DNA from: a virus
Length of the DNA stretch: 20,548 nucleotides
Reading direction: 5' to 3' (one strand)
Virus record (IMG/VR): IMGVR_UViG_3300037242_000213
Span: 1-20,548 of that record
The position numbers and the translations under genes are program-made. This document shows positions 162 to 20,548 of the stretch, in pieces. The notes under the pieces were generated by a model, which saw nothing but the letters and a program-made list of their open reading frames with translations, made no database searches and was not told where the DNA came from. The first letter of the stretch is position 1. Every line of letters begins with the position of its first letter.

Positions 162-439
162 CGGCGAAGCCCCGCCCGGCGAACCTCCGTCCATACGTGC
201 GGGAACCATCGGCGAATCCCTACGCCGCTGCAATGCGACGATGCATCATCAAACCGGTACTCCTGTCCGCATTTCTCGCACGTGAACGATGTCATCTTGT
301 CTAGCAACCTGTTTCGCCCGAGTTTAGCGAACGCGCGATTGCAGCACTTCTCGCCTTCCATCAGCATGTTCAACGGAGTGCGCTCAATTGCCGCGAGCTT
401 CTTCTTGCGCTCGGCCTCCATGATTTCGGTGATGTTCAT
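158..439 (-). CDS. Small zinc-ribbon-like protein, 93 aa
   Basis: Not assigned to a family. The N-terminal third is a charged helix (MNITEIMEAERKKKLAAIER). The middle holds a Cys-Cys pair and then FTCEKCGQEY followed by another Cys about 13 residues on, which looks like half of a zinc ribbon. The start is well supported: the ATG overlaps the portal stop by 4 bp (ATGA), and AAAAGGAGGG, a strong ribosome binding site inside the end of the portal gene, sits about 6 bp upstream. It is therefore made from the same transcript as the portal. Its stop overlaps the GTG of the SixA-like gene. Small zinc-binding proteins next to portal genes can be virion or regulatory proteins, but nothing here distinguishes these. 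Confidence 0.7.
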   Translation of the reverse strand: MNITEIMEAERKKKLAAIERTPLNMLMEGEKCCNRAFAKLGRNRLLDKMTSFTCEKCGQEYRFDDASSHCSGVGIRRWFPHVWTEVRRAGLRR

Positions 440-2463
440 GCAGCCCTCCTTTTGACGGCTTCGATCAGTCGCGCGAGTTTCGCCACGAACGCGCTTTCCT
501 GCGCCGGTTGGGCGCCGGGCGCTTCCGGCGTTCCCGGTGGTGGTGGCAGCGCTGTCGTCGCTGGAGCTGGCGAGCCTCCCGGTAATTGTGGCAAGCCTCC
601 TGGATTCGGGAGTGCTTTGCCGATAGGCGGAGGCAGTGGAACTTTCGTGCGCGACGGATCGTAGGCCGGTTCGTATCCGGGTGTTCCCTTGACGCCCTTA
701 GCATTCGGCGGATACATCTCGTCGAGAATCGTTTCAGTGTCCTCGACGCCGAGCGCTTCAAAGAGCAGCCGCACACCTTCGCGCTCGTCAATCCCGACGA
801 TCTGGCCGCCCTTGTTTTCGAGCGTCATCGCCGTTGCGATTGCCGTGATGATCGCCGGCATGTCGCCTTCTCGGATCGCTGGGAAAGTAACGCGAACCTG
901 AATCTCATCATCCTTCGGCTTTGCGGCTTCGTCGTACACACGCAAACCAGTGGGAAGCGTCCGCCGCGGAGCTTCGTTGATACAGATCACATTACCGGCG
1001 CCGCGGGCTTCGCGCAGCTTCCCGCTGGTGGCGCCGGCGGAAACGCTGAGCACGTACTTCGCGATCACCACAAGATCATCCTCCCATTCCATCTGGCGAG
1101 CGCGCATCCCGAGTTCGGTTGGGCGGTCGAGGGTCGTCGCCGTGGAAAGATTCGAGGTTTCCATATCCCCGAGCCACGTGGGAGGAATTCCAAACACGTT
1201 TCCGATGTAGACGTTGTAGGTCAAGCCCTCTTTCGGGTCGAGCCCCTGGTTGCGGGAGTTAACCATCCGCCACTCGGTGCCTGGTCCATGCGCGAGCTGT
1301 GACGCATCCACGGGTGTTGGGTTTGAATCCCAGAGCGAATTACCGGGAGACGTGTTCACCTGCGTTTGGAGCTGGCGCTTGGTTCCCTCGATGGCCGCCT
1401 GGCCGCCCTTGGTGGTGATGTCCCAAGCGATCTGGGCGTGCGAAGCCGCAAGCGTTGCGCAGCTCTGCATGTACCGCGCGGCGGTCTTGATCCATTCGAG
1501 CGCCGGGTAACCTTCGGGGCAGCCAAAGTGCCATTTTGCCACGCCACCGGATTTGCGGTGCAGGATCGGGCAGCCCCACTCAACTGGATCTACTCCGATG
1601 GTTGGACCAGCGCCGGGCGGTTTCGCGAATCCCAGCGCCGGATACCAAACTGTCTGCGTAACGCGGGATGTTTGTCCGGTTGCGGTATCGAATTGATCCG
1701 ATGTCCAGATGCGCTTGAAGAGTTGCTCTTTATCGCTATCGTCCGGGTCCGTGATGATCTCCTGGATCTCTGTAGCGTCGATCCTGCGAGCATCGACCTT
1801 GCCAGTCTCAAGCGTGTCCGGGAAGAACACCCAGAATAGATTGCCGTCCATCGATTTCGCTCTTTGCGTAGCTAGCAACGCGGTCGGGCCGAACGTGCGC
1901 CGGTTGCGCTCGAAGAACTCTTGCAGTACGGCGTTGGCGGCAGTATCCGTGCTGGTGATCTCCACGCCGCGGCCAAACACGTACGCCGCAACCACGTCGA
2001 TTGCTCGACGCAGGAGCGGTTGCTTGACGTAATACAGACGCGAGATGAGGATGATTTGCTGGATTCCCCACCGCGAGAACTCCAGCCAGCTCAGGTTGAT
2101 CTCTCTCCGCCAGTTCACGTTCTGCAAGGCCAGTTCGATATCGCCGAATGCGCCGACTGCGGAGACCGGGATCGTCTCACGCAGGCCGCGCAGCGCCGCT
2201 TCCTGAATACGGAGCATGGTCTGGTTGGCTTCCTGGATCAGTGTCGGGCCCGGCATGGCATACGCTGGACCGGAGCCGCACATCATCCGCGCTTCGACCA
2301 TCTCCGAAGCCATTTCGCGGAAGCGGTTGAAGTTGGTAGATTCGTCGGGCGTCAGTCGCGAGATAAGGTCGCGAAGGACGCGGTTTTCATCGGAGTAGTC
2401 TTTGCGAGGTGTGAGCGCTTGCGTCCACCGAATCAGGAGTGCGCGGAGGAACCGCTTGACCAT
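436..2463 (-). CDS. Phage portal protein
   Basis: A 675-residue protein with the features of large tailed-phage portals: a helical N-terminus, 'ISRLYYVKQPLLRRAIDVVAAYVFGRGVE' style text (the entry into the stem/wing domain) around residues 140-175, a 'GNLFWVFFPD' strand region, and the segment VYIGNVFGIPPTWLGD followed by STATTLDRP, typical of portals that form the dodecameric DNA-entry ring of the capsid. The last about 80 residues are a Pro/Gly/Ala-rich tail ending in a short basic helix. It lies downstream of terminase as in many phages, but separated from it by a glycan-modification cassette. No Shine-Dalgarno is seen before the ATG at 2463. A 40-bp stretch coding LETGKVDARRID is repeated exactly, in inverted orientation, at 3888-3927. 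Confidence 0.9.
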   Translation of the reverse strand: MVKRFLRALLIRWTQALTPRKDYSDENRVLRDLISRLTPDESTNFNRFREMASEMVEARMMCGSGPAYAMPGPTLIQEANQTMLRIQEAALRGLRETIPVSAVGAFGDIELALQNVNWRREINLSWLEFSRWGIQQIILISRLYYVKQPLLRRAIDVVAAYVFGRGVEITSTDTAANAVLQEFFERNRRTFGPTALLATQRAKSMDGNLFWVFFPDTLETGKVDARRIDATEIQEIITDPDDSDKEQLFKRIWTSDQFDTATGQTSRVTQTVWYPALGFAKPPGAGPTIGVDPVEWGCPILHRKSGGVAKWHFGCPEGYPALEWIKTAARYMQSCATLAASHAQIAWDITTKGGQAAIEGTKRQLQTQVNTSPGNSLWDSNPTPVDASQLAHGPGTEWRMVNSRNQGLDPKEGLTYNVYIGNVFGIPPTWLGDMETSNLSTATTLDRPTELGMRARQMEWEDDLVVIAKYVLSVSAGATSGKLREARGAGNVICINEAPRRTLPTGLRVYDEAAKPKDDEIQVRVTFPAIREGDMPAIITAIATAMTLENKGGQIVGIDEREGVRLLFEALGVEDTETILDEMYPPNAKGVKGTPGYEPAYDPSRTKVPLPPPIGKALPNPGGLPQLPGGSPAPATTALPPPPGTPEAPGAQPAQESAFVAKLARLIEAVKRRAA
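1777..1816. repeat. 40-bp exact inverted repeat, copy 1 (inside portal gene)
   Basis: Read on the minus strand this segment begins CACGCTTGAGACTGGCAAGG and ends GGATCGAC. It codes part of the portal protein (LETGKVDARRID). The identical 40 bases occur on the plus strand at 3888-3927. Identity stops sharply on both sides, apart from a one-mismatch extension of a few bases past the GAC end. Confidence 0.95.
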
Positions 2464-2482
2464 GACAGGAGGATATCACGGG

Positions 2483-3433
2483 TCACGCCGCTCCGAAGAA
2501 ATCCAGCCCGGCGAACTTCTCGGCTCCGTGCTGAGCGATCAGCCGCTTCAGCTCGATCTCCTGCCACGGTGCCTTATCCTCCGACAGATCCAGGTAGCTC
2601 ATCAGGTGCGCGTACGGAAGCCACCAGTCGAGCGGGACGTCGGCGCTCGAATACTTCATCGGATCGCTTTCGTAAACCGCGCGGCCGTACATCTGATTCA
2701 GCTCGGCTTTGAGGATCGCATCCGTCCCGCACCGCTTCCCGTTGAGCATCGTTGGCGCAGGCCAACGAAGAACCTCTGTCGCCTTGTAGAGCGCCTGCTT
2801 CGCCCGAAGCCTCCGCTCACTCAGGAATTGCAGGTGCATCAAGCCGCCTTGCTCCGGCTTGAGTGGCGCGTGGAAGTTGCGACCGAGCCCCATCGGATTG
2901 CGGTGGTGGAAGTCGCGGCCATCGTGGAGGGCCCAGTGCGCAGCGGGTTCGTCCTTGAAAGCCATCGAGACTTGTTGGCCAGGGCCCCAGACGCCGCTCG
3001 TGAGATAGCGGTTAGGAGTGCGCGGAAGCGCGAGCCACGGAAGTTGAAGGACGGTTGACGGCTTCGTGGTCTGGATGAGGCTCTTGATATTTTCCCGCGC
3101 ACCTGATAATCCGAGCAGGTTCCCCGTCAGGATCTCATCCGCGTCGATCATCGCAATGTGAGTTGCGCCGCGCTCACGGGCCGCTTCGAGCAGGCGTTGC
3201 CGCTGCGCCATCTCGACCCACTCGGCCTCCGCCTGTCGGAGAACCGTCACGCGCCAAGGATTCGCGTAGGAGATATCCTGAACGGCTTCCAGCGTATGCA
3301 CGATCTCCGCCGAATTGTCCGTGCAGGCGTGCAGCCCAATTACGATCTCATCGCACCACATCAGCGCCGCGCGCGTCGTCAGCCCGAGGCACCACTCCTC
3401 GTTGCGCACCGGCATGATTGCGACGAGCTTCAC
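2483..3433 (-). CDS. GT2-like glycosyltransferase
   Basis: A 316-residue protein starting (GTG) VKLVAIMPVRNEE, the classic first strand of family 2 GT-A glycosyltransferases, with the metal/nucleotide-sugar binding acidic motif AMIDADE at about residues 95-100. It should transfer a sugar from a nucleotide-sugar donor in the cytoplasm; donor and acceptor are unknown. The GTG start at 3433 is chosen because it overlaps the preceding stop by 4 bp (GTGA) and has GGAGG 4 bp upstream. A start further upstream (3460) would overlap the previous gene by 31 bp. It is the last enzyme of the cassette before the portal gene, which starts 19 bp after its stop. The C-terminal half (HHRNPMGLGRNFH, MHLQFLSERR) is not recognised but is rich in His/Trp, as in similar phage transferases. 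Confidence 0.82.
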   Translation of the reverse strand: MKLVAIMPVRNEEWCLGLTTRAALMWCDEIVIGLHACTDNSAEIVHTLEAVQDISYANPWRVTVLRQAEAEWVEMAQRQRLLEAARERGATHIAMIDADEILTGNLLGLSGARENIKSLIQTTKPSTVLQLPWLALPRTPNRYLTSGVWGPGQQVSMAFKDEPAAHWALHDGRDFHHRNPMGLGRNFHAPLKPEQGGLMHLQFLSERRLRAKQALYKATEVLRWPAPTMLNGKRCGTDAILKAELNQMYGRAVYESDPMKYSSADVPLDWWLPYAHLMSYLDLSEDKAPWQEIELKRLIAQHGAEKFAGLDFFGAA

Positions 3434-3585
3434 GCGGCCTCCCTGAATGCGCGCACCCAAACTTCCTCCGCTGGCGTGAAATCGATAATGGTTTCCATGA
3501 CACGCTCTAGTCGTTCGCGTTGAATCGCCAGCGCGAGAATCGCCTTGGCGTTTTCCTGCGCCGGGGCTCGCTCCATTTCGCTCAT
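3430..3585 (-). CDS. Small hypothetical protein, 51 aa
   Basis: Reads MSEMERAPAQENAKAILALA and continues as an amphipathic helix ending in VWVRAFREAA. No family is recognised. The start at 3585 is chosen because its ATG overlaps the stop of the preceding gene by 4 bp (ATGA) and a GGTGA lies 8 bp upstream. An in-frame longer version begins at 3618. Its own stop overlaps the GTG of the downstream glycosyltransferase. It sits between two cassette genes and is probably co-translated with them. Predicted all-helical, cytoplasmic, with no cysteines. Confidence 0.55.
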   Translation of the reverse strand: MSEMERAPAQENAKAILALAIQRERLERVMETIIDFTPAEEVWVRAFREAA

Positions 3586-3851
3586 GAAGGTTTCACCCGC
3601 GTCTGCAAGTTCGCCCATTCAACAAACCCAGGATTGATCTGGCGCACCACGCCGATTGCGTGACATGGCACGCTGAGTCCGGCAGAGGCAGCGGCGGCCG
3701 CCTCGGTATCCGTGAATACACGGTCGATCTTCGCAAGTACCATTTCTCCTTTGTCGCCGCCGAACAGCGCGCAGCGGTGCTTCTTGCACAGCGCGCGGAA
3801 CTCTTCGAGAATATCCTTCGCCCGCTCGGGATCGTTCGGGTCAATTATCAT
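3582..3851 (-). CDS. Hypothetical protein, 89 aa
   Basis: Begins MIIDPNDPERAKDILEEF and contains CKKHRCALFGGDKGEMVLAKID, suggesting a small alpha/beta fold, then an Ala-rich stretch and a tail QINPGFVEWANLQ. No family is recognised. The start is uncertain. The ATG at 3851 has AGGA only 3 bp upstream. In-frame ATGs at 3887 and 3905 would add 12 or 18 residues but lie at or inside the 40-bp inverted repeat and have no ribosome binding site. Its stop overlaps the next start by 4 bp (ATGA). The 5' end shows a near-duplication: an out-of-frame ATG 29 bp upstream encodes MIIDPNDQEK then a stop that overlaps this ATG. Confidence 0.6.
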   Translation of the reverse strand: MIIDPNDPERAKDILEEFRALCKKHRCALFGGDKGEMVLAKIDRVFTDTEAAAAASAGLSVPCHAIGVVRQINPGFVEWANLQTRVKPS

Positions 3852-3876
3852 TTTTCCTGGTCGTTGGGGTCGATAA

Positions 3877-4515
3877 TCATTCTCCATCACGCTTGAGACT
3901 GGCAAGGTCGATGCTCGCAGGATCGACCCTCACGAAAAGACAATTCTCGCCGTTGCGTGCCAGCTCGCGGTAACCCGCGTTGGCGGCAATGGGGACAAGT
4001 TCCGCATGCCGGTGGTCGTGCTCGACGCAGTACAGCTTCGGGCGAAGCGGGAACCTGAGCGTGGCAAGGAATAGATCCGCGGAACCGCCCTCGACATCGA
4101 TATCGATGAAATCGAAGTTTACGCCGAAGCGATAGACGAGCAGCTCAAGCGTGATTGATTGCGCCAGGAACGAGCCGTAGAACTTGTATCCGCCGTCCTG
4201 CCAGATTTTCAGCGCGGCCTCGCTTGATGTGCTGATGGCGTCATCGGTCGCGTGTATCTTGACCAGGTCCGTATGCTTGGTAACCGCTGCCATGACGAGA
4301 ATAATCCGCGGGTCATTTCCGTACTCCTTGAGGAGCGTGGTCATTGGGCCCGGCGAAGGCTCGACCATCACGCCAGACCATCCGCGCTCGTACAGCGCGC
4401 GCGTGTTCGACAACAACTTGGCATCGTAAGCGCCAATGTCGAGGAACCGACCATCCGCCTTCCCTTCAAATACCTGGCCAATCAGCGCCTCTTCGTTGTT
4501 TTGTGAGTAACTCAT
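3877..4515 (-). CDS. FkbM-family SAM-dependent methyltransferase
   Basis: A 212-residue protein with the FkbM pattern: SYSQNNEE at the N-terminus, SAM-binding strand FLDIGAYD at 24-31, SNT...ERGWSGVMVEP at 36-53, and FIDIDVEGGS at 136-145. FkbM enzymes O-methylate sugars or similar hydroxyls, so with glycosyltransferases on both sides a methylated glycan is the natural guess. Its ATG overlaps the upstream transferase stop by 4 bp (ATGA). The usual end of the domain appears to be around NGENCLFVR (188-196). The final 13 residues plus DGE come from the 40-bp inverted copy of portal sequence, so the natural C-terminus has probably been replaced. The catalytic core looks complete. Confidence 0.88.
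   Translation of the reverse strand: MSYSQNNEEALIGQVFEGKADGRFLDIGAYDAKLLSNTRALYERGWSGVMVEPSPGPMTTLLKEYGNDPRIILVMAAVTKHTDLVKIHATDDAISTSSEAALKIWQDGGYKFYGSFLAQSITLELLVYRFGVNFDFIDIDVEGGSADLFLATLRFPLRPKLYCVEHDHRHAELVPIAANAGYRELARNGENCLFVRVDPASIDLASLKRDGE
3888..3927. repeat. 40-bp exact inverted repeat, copy 2 (3' end of FkbM gene)
   Basis: On the plus strand this begins CACGCTTGAGACTGGCAAGG and ends GGATCGAC, identical to the minus strand of 1777-1816. Read in the FkbM gene direction it codes residues 197-209 (VDPASIDLASLKR), the antisense reading of the portal sequence. The FkbM stop follows three codons later. Confidence 0.95.
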
Positions 4516-5264
4516 CCCATACCTGCTATCTTCAGCACGGTCGTCTCGTCCGCCTTCCCGCTCTTGCCGGGAACGGTCGAGTAACCCGCCTGGTACGCAA
4601 CAAATCTAGGCCACGGAGTCAATTCCGTCAAGCCGTACTCATGGGCTATGAGACTCAATGCGCTCTGGTCCTGCCGATGACCGGAGCACCTGGGATCGTA
4701 ACTGACGAAACCGACATTGCGATAGTGGTGCGTCTTGTCGGCCGCGAGTGAATTGGAATGCGGCGCGGCGAAGCCGGGCTGATTCGTCGCCTCACACCAG
4801 CGGTTCACCGCGCTCCGTATCCGCGGATCGCCGAGCTTCAGCCCAACGATCCCGCTTGCCACGTCCCGTATCGTCATCGCGTGGTCGCGGTCGAGACCAA
4901 AGTTCGCGAGCATCGTATCGTTCGTCCATTCGCCCACCGTGAAACCAGCCGGAGCGAGATAGTAGCTGTGATCCCAGATGAAGTCGATCAGCGGCTCGAT
5001 ATGCTTGATCGGATAAACGCTCGCATCGATCAGCAGCGCCACTTCCGCACCGCTATCCATCGCGTATTTCATCGCCCACGGCTTTGCGGCGTAGCCGGTG
5101 TAATTGACGTCGTCCAGCACCAGTTTCGGCGTGCCAGATGGAAGCACGTTCAGCCAGCCTTGCAACTCATAACCAGGCGACACTCGCTCGAATTCGCGGA
5201 TCTGGCGTTCCAGGCCCTTGCGATACCAACCCCTGTAGGCGACGGTGCAGATTATGACCCGCAT
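4512..5264 (-). CDS. Glycosyltransferase-like protein
   Basis: A 250-residue protein starting MRVIICTVAYRGWYRKGLER, a first-strand/helix typical of GT-A folds, with AEVALLIDASVYPIKHIEPL at about 73-92. Here the usual D-x-D is D80-A-S82, as in some phage and capsule-linked transferases. The mid region (GYAAKPWAMKYAMDSGAEV) resembles the nucleotide-sugar binding part of small capsular/LPS transferases. It is the least canonical of the four transferases and could be inactive or use a different fold detail. The start overlaps the upstream gene's end by 13 bp. Its stop overlaps the FkbM ATG by 4 bp, so transferase and methyltransferase are translated as a pair. Confidence 0.68.
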   Translation of the reverse strand: MRVIICTVAYRGWYRKGLERQIREFERVSPGYELQGWLNVLPSGTPKLVLDDVNYTGYAAKPWAMKYAMDSGAEVALLIDASVYPIKHIEPLIDFIWDHSYYLAPAGFTVGEWTNDTMLANFGLDRDHAMTIRDVASGIVGLKLGDPRIRSAVNRWCEATNQPGFAAPHSNSLAADKTHHYRNVGFVSYDPRCSGHRQDQSALSLIAHEYGLTELTPWPRFVAYQAGYSTVPGKSGKADETTVLKIAGMG

Positions 5265-6007
5265 AATGCCTCACTCCCTGGAAATCCTTCCTTGCGGCGG
5301 CGAAAGAAGATCGCCTCCGCTTCCTTCCAGTGCTCGGCGCTAGCCCATTTCTTCATATGCTCTGGAATCATATCGACCGTGTAATTCTTCACGCGACCGG
5401 GATGCATATGCATCTGTGTCAGGTCGCGCCGCTCCCAGTACACGCCGAGCTGGACGGCTACGGCTCGCGCCTCTTCGTCGACAAACATGTGCTGGTACTC
5501 GGGCCACAGCGGGCCTTTGCCTTGATTCACACGCTTGCAGTATTCACGCCCGTACCAGGCCGAGCCTGCAATGCGGTCGATGTAAGCGGAGCGCATATCG
5601 GGACGTGCATGATTTGGATTTTCGCCCCATCTGTCGCCCGTGGGCTGCATCACTCCGAAAGTGCTGAGTGAGTTAGTAATCTCACGTCCGACGCGGCGAA
5701 AGTGATCTTCGCACTCCTCCGCGATCTCATCCGCGGTGTGGTTCGGATCTGGGAACACATCATCCGCGGCGGCGATGAACCATTCGGCTTCGGAATCTCG
5801 TTCGAGCCTCACATGCTCGATGAGTTGATTCACTGCCATCGCATATCCCGGATAAGTCGGCGACGAGTAGTACTCGTCCGCGATTGGCGCAGTTGATCCG
5901 TTGTTCCGGTACAGCGCGATCTTATATCCGCGCTCGTGCCATGCCGCTGCCCACTTCGCCACTTCCGCCACGGGCCGCGCGGATGGGATCGTCACCCACA
6001 CACTCAA
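5252..6007 (-). CDS. Glycosyltransferase, GT-A type
   Basis: A 251-residue protein reading (TTG) LSVWVTIPSARPVAEVAKWA, with EWFIAAADDVFPDPNH at about 76-90 carrying the acidic DD motif expected to bind the metal-nucleotide sugar. The C-terminal half is rich in His/Trp/Tyr (WPEYQHMFVDEE, MHMHPGRV), a pattern seen in phage-borne transferases. The TTG start at 6007 is preferred over an in-frame upstream TTG at 6103. GGAGGAG lies 6 bp before it, and the TTG overlaps by 4 bp (TTGA) the stop of a 39-codon gene in the gap upstream. It sits in the middle of the cassette. The sugar donor and target are unknown. Confidence 0.78.
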   Translation of the reverse strand: MSVWVTIPSARPVAEVAKWAAAWHERGYKIALYRNNGSTAPIADEYYSSPTYPGYAMAVNQLIEHVRLERDSEAEWFIAAADDVFPDPNHTADEIAEECEDHFRRVGREITNSLSTFGVMQPTGDRWGENPNHARPDMRSAYIDRIAGSAWYGREYCKRVNQGKGPLWPEYQHMFVDEEARAVAVQLGVYWERRDLTQMHMHPGRVKNYTVDMIPEHMKKWASAEHWKEAEAIFFRRRKEGFPGSEALCGS

Positions 6008-6123
6008 GGTTTTCTCCTCCCAAACCAAAATCCGAACCAAATCGAATCGCTGCCAAAGAACCAGCAGCAGAAATCCGTCACTAACGCTCCAAGTACCGCC
6101 CAACCCACCGCGTGGACTATCAC
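6004..6123 (-). CDS. 39-aa aromatic-rich small membrane protein
   Basis: Found by hand in the apparent gap between two glycosyltransferase genes. It reads (GTG) MIVHAVGWAVLGALVTDFCC and ends FGFWFGRRKP, one hydrophobic segment packed with Trp and Phe followed by a basic end, so a single-span membrane peptide with the RRKP end in the cytoplasm is likely. Support for it being real: its GTG overlaps the upstream transferase stop by 4 bp (GTGA), GAGAGG lies about 8 bp upstream, and its stop overlaps the TTG start of the next transferase (TTGA). It could be a membrane anchor or scaffold for the glycosyltransferases, or a translational coupling device. No family is recognised. Confidence 0.6.
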   Translation of the reverse strand: MIVHAVGWAVLGALVTDFCCWFFGSDSIWFGFWFGRRKP

Positions 6124-6911
6124 CGCGTCATCCTCTCTCGACAATACTCATCACAAGTCGGGACCCGTTTCCATTGCTGCGAGCCCATCGCAACGTGCCT
6201 CTCAAGATCGTACCCGGTGCTGGTGTTGCCGCCGTGAATCGAGGCGATCATGCGGGGTAATCCGTCGCGCTCGGTGCCCCAGCCCGGATGTGAGTCGAGT
6301 GATGTTACGCTCAGCACCTTGAGATAGGCACACCACTTTTCCTCGACGCCCTGATTCTCGTTTCGGAACGGTCTCTGCTCCCACGTCCTTCGCCAGTAAC
6401 AGAGGGACGTGCCGAGTGCGTAAGTCAGGAATGGGCCGGTGTAGAGCCACGCCGCGCCATAAGACGCGCCGCTGTAATCTTCTGTCGGCGGCGCATCCAC
6501 TTCGAGCGCCGGGCGTGTTGGCTCGCGCCAGAACAGCATGTCGCGATAGCCGACCGCGTCCCAGCCGCTCTGTTGCAGTAGCGCTACTTGCTCGGCAATG
6601 CGGTTTGGGTGGCTCCAATCGTCGTCGTCCCAATGAACGAAAATATCCGCGCCAGTCCGGCTTTTCGCGTACTGATTCGCGTAGTTCCGCAGCGCGCCTA
6701 TAGTTAGTCCGTAATCAAACGGAGCCCACAAGCGCTCTTCGGAGTTGGAGATTGTTGCGTAGGCGTACGGGAACCGGTCCACCACGCTGGTATCGAGAAT
6801 AAAGATCCGCTTGTTCTCGTACGCCTGCGCTCTGAAGGATCTTACAGCCCGAGCCGCCATTTGCGGGCGATCCCTGGTTAACATAATCGCGCAAACGAGT
6901 GGATCAGCCAC
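6120..6911 (-). CDS. GT2-like glycosyltransferase
   Basis: A 263-residue protein beginning (GTG) VADPLVCAIMLTRDRPQMA. This is the family 2 first strand, with a very clear acidic motif IFVHWDDDDWSHPNRI at about 90-105 (metal and sugar-nucleotide binding), followed by the helix typical of GT-A enzymes. It is the most canonical transferase of the cassette and its first member downstream of the terminase. The GTG at 6911 is preferred: it overlaps the upstream 56-aa gene by 8 bp and has GAGG 8-9 bp before it. A TTG at 6926 would add five residues. The C-terminal region (WCAYLKVLSVTSLDSHPGWG, SIHGGNTSTGYD) probably binds the acceptor. Confidence 0.85.
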   Translation of the reverse strand: MADPLVCAIMLTRDRPQMAARAVRSFRAQAYENKRIFILDTSVVDRFPYAYATISNSEERLWAPFDYGLTIGALRNYANQYAKSRTGADIFVHWDDDDWSHPNRIAEQVALLQQSGWDAVGYRDMLFWREPTRPALEVDAPPTEDYSGASYGAAWLYTGPFLTYALGTSLCYWRRTWEQRPFRNENQGVEEKWCAYLKVLSVTSLDSHPGWGTERDGLPRMIASIHGGNTSTGYDLERHVAMGSQQWKRVPTCDEYCRERMTR

Positions 6912-7074
6912 GAATAGCCGCCTCAATCTCGCTCATCTGGAGATGTCCGTCGAAATAGATTTCAAAATCCCCATCTTCGCGCGGATCGAAGCGCTTGAAG
7001 TATGCTCCATCATCAACCTTCGCCATCATCAGCGCTACGATCCTCAGCGCTGCGCGTTTCACATCACGCTCCAT
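6904..7074 (-). CDS. Small hypothetical protein, 56 aa
   Basis: A short frame read by hand between the terminase stop and the first glycosyltransferase. It reads MERDVKRAALRIVALMMAKV, then YFKRFDPREDGDFEIYFDGH and a short helix MSEIEAAIRG. The composition and the 8-bp overlap with the following transferase start make it a likely gene rather than a gap. No Shine-Dalgarno stands out before the ATG (only GCGGAACG). No family is recognised. The helix-strand-strand-helix outline suggests a small folded cytoplasmic protein. Confidence 0.55.
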   Translation of the reverse strand: MERDVKRAALRIVALMMAKVDDGAYFKRFDPREDGDFEIYFDGHLQMSEIEAAIRG

Positions 7075-20074: not shown

Positions 20075-20548
20075 ATGGCTTTCGACATCAAGAATCGATG
20101 GGACGATACAATCGTCTACCACTCCGAACTAACGCTGGATCTACGCGCCGCCGTCCTGGAAGCGCTGGACAGCGGGGCGAACCTCATCGAGGCGAACCTC
20201 AGCGGGGCGAACCTCAGCGAGGCGAACCTCAGCGGGGCGGACCTCATCGAGGCGAACCTCAGCTGGGCGAACCTCCGCGGGGCGAACCTCAGCGGGGTGA
20301 ACCTCCGCGGGGTGAACCTCAGCGGGGCGAACCTCCGCGGGTCGGACCTCCGCGGGGCGGACCTCATCGAGGCGAACCTCCGCTGGGCGAACCTCAGTGA
20401 CGCGAACCTCAGCGGGACGGACCTCCGCGGGGCGAACCTCAGTGACGCGAACCTCAGCGGGACGGACCTCCGCGGGGCGAACCTCAGCGGGGCGGACCTC
20501 AGCGAGGCGGACCGCAGCGGGGCGAAGTACGCTCCTGCAGATGTTTGC
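20075..20548 (+). CDS. Pentapeptide-repeat protein, N-terminal part (runs off right edge)
   Basis: 158 codons are visible without a stop. The N-terminus MAFDIKNRWDDTIVYHSELT is the usual head of a phage/plasmid pentapeptide family. From residue 33 about 23 repeats of the A(N/D)LxG type follow (SGANL, IEANL, SGADL, RGANL), forming a right-handed quadrilateral beta helix that mimics the shape of DNA. Relatives such as Qnr and MfpA bind gyrase; many phage members have no known role. At residue about 148 the repeat gives way to SGAKYAPADVC. The codons of the repeats are nearly identical, pointing to recent expansion. No Shine-Dalgarno. Confidence 0.88.
   Translation, partial: MAFDIKNRWDDTIVYHSELTLDLRAAVLEALDSGANLIEANLSGANLSEANLSGADLIEANLSWANLRGANLSGVNLRGVNLSGANLRGSDLRGADLIEANLRWANLSDANLSGTDLRGANLSDANLSGTDLRGANLSGADLSEADRSGAKYAPADVC
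20171..20515 (+). repeat. Tandem 15-bp repeat coding pentapeptides, with an exact 45-bp duplication
   Basis: About 23 units of a 15-bp consensus near GCGAACCTCAGCGGG. Positions 20390-20434 and 20435-20479 are identical 45-bp copies (three pentapeptides). The repeat leaves several other frames open on both strands, which produces spurious reading frames. Confidence 0.92.

Follow-up and report, generated by a model that had tools for sequence, protein, structure and literature searches.

An exact inverted copy of 40 bp of portal gene at the 3′ end of a phage FkbM methyltransferase gene, a probable templated insertion at a cassette joint

An FkbM-family methyltransferase gene in a 20,548-bp viral record, referred to here as the window, carries near its 3′ end an exact inverted copy of 40 bp of the portal gene of the same phage. 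With a probability of about 0.72, this segment (3888-3927) is a short inverted templated insertion made in this phage lineage at an illegitimate cassette junction. The first-pass annotation had reported that the minus strand of 1777-1816 is identical to the plus strand of 3888-3927, and re-reading the window confirmed all 40 bases. The two arms are reverse complements separated by 2071 bp. When taken over 1774-1816 and 3888-3930 the match is 42/43, with two extra bases past one mismatch. The 40-mer is in frame in both genes, reading LETGKVDARRID in portal and VDPASIDLASLKR in FkbM, where DGE and the stop codon follow. The features discussed below are listed in Table 1.

Table 1. Coordinates of genes and junction elements in the window.
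Feature	Position	Strand	Details
Portal protein gene	436..2463	-	675 aa; PHROG 10963 portal protein, E 1.3e-53
Source copy of the 40-mer, in the portal gene	1777..1816	-	codes LETGKVDARRID; residues kept in relatives
89-aa gene, downstream neighbour of FkbM	3582..3851	-	start MIIDPNDPERA; 79% identical in L041 (L036 contig); start aligned with L036
Partial second copy of the 89-aa gene start	3858..3880	-	ATGATTATCGACCCCAACGACC; 18/22 identical to the start at 3851
FkbM-family methyltransferase gene	3877..4515	-	212 aa; PF05050 E 1.8e-07, TIGR01444 E 1.9e-10
Filler	3880..3887	-	8 nt, ATGGAGAA; finishes the 16-codon tail (D-G-E); read directly
Derived copy of the 40-mer	3888..3927	-	codes VDPASIDLASLKR at the FkbM C-terminus; exact reverse complement of 1777-1816
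Glycosyltransferase-like gene, upstream neighbour of FkbM	4512..5264	-	83% identical in L040 (L036 contig)

First-order Markov simulations of the window (n=100) gave longest inverted repeats of 13-17 bp, and the runner-up exact inverted repeats in the window itself are 15 bp. Related viral contigs were searched at 38 loci, and exact inverted repeats at a distance never reached 18 bp there. A further 20 stretches and one cultured Streptomyces phage (21 in all, 446 kb) contained one 21-bp and one 23-bp distant inverted repeat. This survey of related phages totals ~0.79 Mb with partial overlap between loci, and 23 bp is the longest repeat in it. The 40-bp repeat is thus a true feature of the sequence, far longer than chance predicts, as first claimed, and it is unusual among its relatives. 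The contig of the relative L036 has a 23-bp exact pair in inverted orientation, AGGGAATTATATAGGTGACTACA (L060:4839-4861 and 5945-5967), that looks regulatory; the window lacks its 19-bp core, even with up to 3 mismatches allowed. At window 20075-20548 an ORF of 15-nt repeats, with NLSGANLR-type pentapeptide repeats, runs past the contig end.

The portal protein is 88% and 78% identical to those of its two nearest relatives, L036 and L037, respectively. Its reading frame can be aligned with theirs over its entire length, and the donor locus is intact. Over the 40-mer the residues GKVDARRID are the same in L036, and L037 has VDARRLD / VDARR(L)D. No FkbM match was found in the whole contigs of L036 and L037. 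Because these residues are conserved in two relatives that both lack FkbM, the portal copy is the ancestral source and the FkbM copy the derived one. This agrees with the reversed copying from portal into FkbM proposed in the first-pass annotation, as does the lack of the extension in FkbM homologues. Transfer in the opposite direction, from FkbM to portal, or descent of both copies from a repeated element, is the least probable reading considered. The exact identity by itself would fit it, but FkbM as donor is contradicted by the conserved portal residues in relatives without FkbM. Exact searches with the 40-mer in the viral collection, and with its 36 leading bases in the genome collection, gave no hit (near-identical records may be omitted from both searches), which also counts against this reading.

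The FkbM copy is identical to the portal gene of the window itself at 40/40 positions. Against the portals of L036 and L037 the count falls to 26/40 and 24/40, the best matches to the 40-mer there differing at 14/40 and 16/40 sites, respectively. Because of this difference, the FkbM copy is a recent self-copy, taken from its own or a near-identical portal gene after the L036/L037 split. A portal profile search of genome contigs found no relative, and a second portal scan, together with the glycosyltransferase-like and 89-aa genes as queries, recovered only the two known contigs. Cultured phages provided no FkbM relative and no DNA relative, and their portals are only ~24-31% identical.

The FkbM domain scores above the curated cut-offs for both PF05050 (31.9 bits, cut-off 22.7) and TIGR01444 (41.3 bits, cut-off 37.7). 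Viral contigs contain 33 loci related to the gene; the closest FkbM gene found is ~54% identical over its full length, with none nearer. All viral homologues with a recovered C-terminus end at the equivalent of R196 plus 0-7 unrelated residues. The window protein continues past R196 for 16 residues, VDPASIDLASLKRDGE, the 13 leading ones from the 40-mer. The copy therefore supplies the last residues before DGE and the stop, past the usual end of the domain, as had been claimed. The first-pass annotation had also proposed comparing FkbM C-termini, and no homologue was found to carry the same C-terminal residues. An AlphaFold2 model built with 20 sequences (mean pLDDT 91) has a confident core up to residue 196, with the last strand at 191-196 and a pLDDT of ~50 in the tail. 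The tail is an extra extension, probably unfolded and probably harmless. Among antisense portal segments of the same length 78% are open, so an open tail proves little. No function is supported for the tail; on the favoured reading the insertion is a mutation scar without selected function.

An exact inverted repeat of 40 bp is a possible recombination substrate, and a recombinase or annealing protein could in principle flip 1817-3887 and so switch FkbM or portal expression. We regard this as very improbable. The first-pass annotation had warned that flipping the 2.1-kb segment would break the portal gene, and the computed inversion indeed truncates portal after LETGKVDARRID, leaving a 277-aa fused product. 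FkbM would stay near full length, with only its last residues altered. An invertible switch would call for a nearby recombinase and for essential genes left intact in both orientations, but no invertase family matched among the window proteins scanned. Programmed inversion was rejected because the portal is truncated, and a conserved regulatory inverted repeat because the repeat is not conserved in the two relatives, both without FkbM.

L036 keeps both FkbM neighbours and has other genes between them; because of this arrangement FkbM is read from gene order as a cassette at a variable site. The gene, which is sugar-methyltransferase-like, was recently acquired. Its start overlaps the upstream stop codon, which suggests operon transcription rather than an own promoter and terminator. 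The upstream neighbour has no Pfam, PHROG or NCBIfam match, and the label glycosyltransferase-like is our own. A glycosyltransferase-like cluster plus FkbM occupies window 2483-6926, between portal and terminase, and the contents of this region differ in the window, L036 and L037. In L036 a glycosyltransferase gene before portal contains a 72-bp tandem duplication (L036:4840-4990) in which MSYLDVSETEAPWQEIALRRLIAE occurs twice.

The 40-mer lies at the 3′ boundary of the FkbM cassette, in a composite junction. Read in the FkbM direction, the downstream edge consists of AGG (R196), the 40-mer, ATGGAGAA, TGATTATCGACCCCAACGACC and AGGAAAA, after which the 89-aa gene begins with its ATG at 3851. 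The tail past the homologues takes 16 codons (48 nt), of which only 40 nt derive from portal. Downstream lies ATGATTATCGACCCCAACGACC, whose first base overlaps the filler and whose TGA is the FkbM stop codon (3877-3879). None of 20,000 shuffles reached its 18/22 match to the 89-aa gene start, so ATGATTATCGACCCCAACGACC is that start repeated in part. In L036 GGGGAAAA precedes the start of the 89-aa gene, which shares bases with the stop codon upstream (AAGTGATC). In a reconstructed ancestor, ...GTG AGG TGATTATCGACC..., R196 would be the last FkbM residue and the stop codon would overlap the start of the next gene; a 48-nt insertion would be needed to give the present junction. The search for this pre-insertion junction found no close relative with FkbM at the site; the distant FkbM homologues lack the insert. 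CGTGA (5 nt) occurs on both sides of the insert, as good a match as ~4% of random pairs reach, and is weakly compatible with microhomology. For the filler, the window offered no source longer than a chance-level 12-mer. The 12-mer CTCAAGCGTGAT (window 4144-4155) is found both on the plus strand inside FkbM and at the insert's right end, which it overruns by 2 nt; as a further template it was judged to be at chance level.

We propose that, while the DNA was being replicated or a break repaired, the 3′ end under synthesis at the FkbM cassette's downstream edge would have used the phage's own portal gene, 2.1 kb off, as template and taken 40 nt from its antisense strand. Rejoining just upstream of the 89-aa gene may then have left the 8-nt filler and the partial second gene-start copy. 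The event could have been template switching or error-prone joining, at cassette acquisition or later. The proposal builds on what is shown: the 40 bases were copied exactly and from portal to FkbM, the event is recent compared with the L036/L037 split, the copy sits at the cassette boundary and the junction is composite. From these we infer an origin in vivo and a template-switch route. The copy is an exact reverse complement of a nearby locus whose donor is intact, as in a templated insertion. It falls after R196, the last conserved codon of FkbM, and before the stop, adding 16 residues and damaging neither gene.

Comparable events are known elsewhere. Paired inverted template switches have been proposed for complex rearrangements in E. 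coli (PMC3161906), and yeast breaks acquire templated inverted insertions of 5-34 bp (PMC11724301). As in both, a short stretch has been copied exactly and in reverse from DNA close by, and it sits at a new joint that has two junctions and shows little homology. However, local inserts in yeast are for the most part foldback and 5-34 bp long (PMC11724301), whereas here 40 bp came from 2.1 kb away, and the E. coli inverted duplications span 5-43 kb (PMC3161906), as against 40 bp in one phage contig. Phage mosaic joints may themselves come from illegitimate recombination near gene boundaries (PMC3029335). FkbM resembles such mosaicism and morons (PMC3029335) in being absent from close relatives, lying between two of their conserved genes and having its joint at gene ends; what sets it apart is that its joint includes, in addition, a stretch copied from a second gene in the genome.

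The feature is known from a single contig, as would be expected of an artefact. An in-vitro chimera would arise if template switching in whole-genome or library amplification joined an antisense portal fragment to the FkbM end and the assembler retained the product. Chimeras from multiple displacement amplification (MDA) are mostly inverted (85%) and intramolecular; the sites joined usually lie within 10 kb of each other, and short complementary sequences are used at the join (PMC1855051), so the orientation and distance seen here fit. However, these chimeras join two segments in inverted order at a single junction with an intervening deletion (PMC1855051), whereas here the gene order resumes after 40 nt, which would take two switches per molecule. 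The insert also falls exactly between the last conserved codon and the next gene start, beside a second scar. We judge amplification an unlikely source, though one to be taken seriously. Somewhat less likely is an assembly chimera of two related strains, with the FkbM side and the partial gene-start copy from one, the rest from the other, and the 40-mer brought in by a wrong graph path. Such a mis-join could leave two divergent partial copies of one gene start side by side, but an antisense portal piece is an unnatural bridge between strains and strain mixing explains it poorly. De Bruijn assemblers require reads for each junction k-mer, and the same would hold here only if such an assembler was used. 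Together the artefacts hold about a quarter of the probability and are less likely than the biological reading, which is favoured by the boundary position, the adjoining second scar and the two-junction form.

A broader idea is that this phage acquired its FkbM cassette through end-joining or template switching, with gaps filled by copies of its own genome, and that such fillers are an unrecognised, datable signature of mosaic-joint formation. We hold this to be improbable. We know of no mosaic joint described as containing a fragment copied from a second gene of that phage. Mutations of the present kind are known; this one is a neat example at a phage cassette joint, and its interest is modest unless self-templated fillers prove common. 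If it is an artefact, it is a warning against reading gene ends from single metagenomic contigs. If it is real, a new C-terminal tail was made out of the antisense DNA of another gene, and the window holds a natural, recent cassette joint whose filler, left by repair or copying, can be traced to the genome of the phage itself. To our knowledge phage mosaic joints usually carry no such clue to their mechanism.
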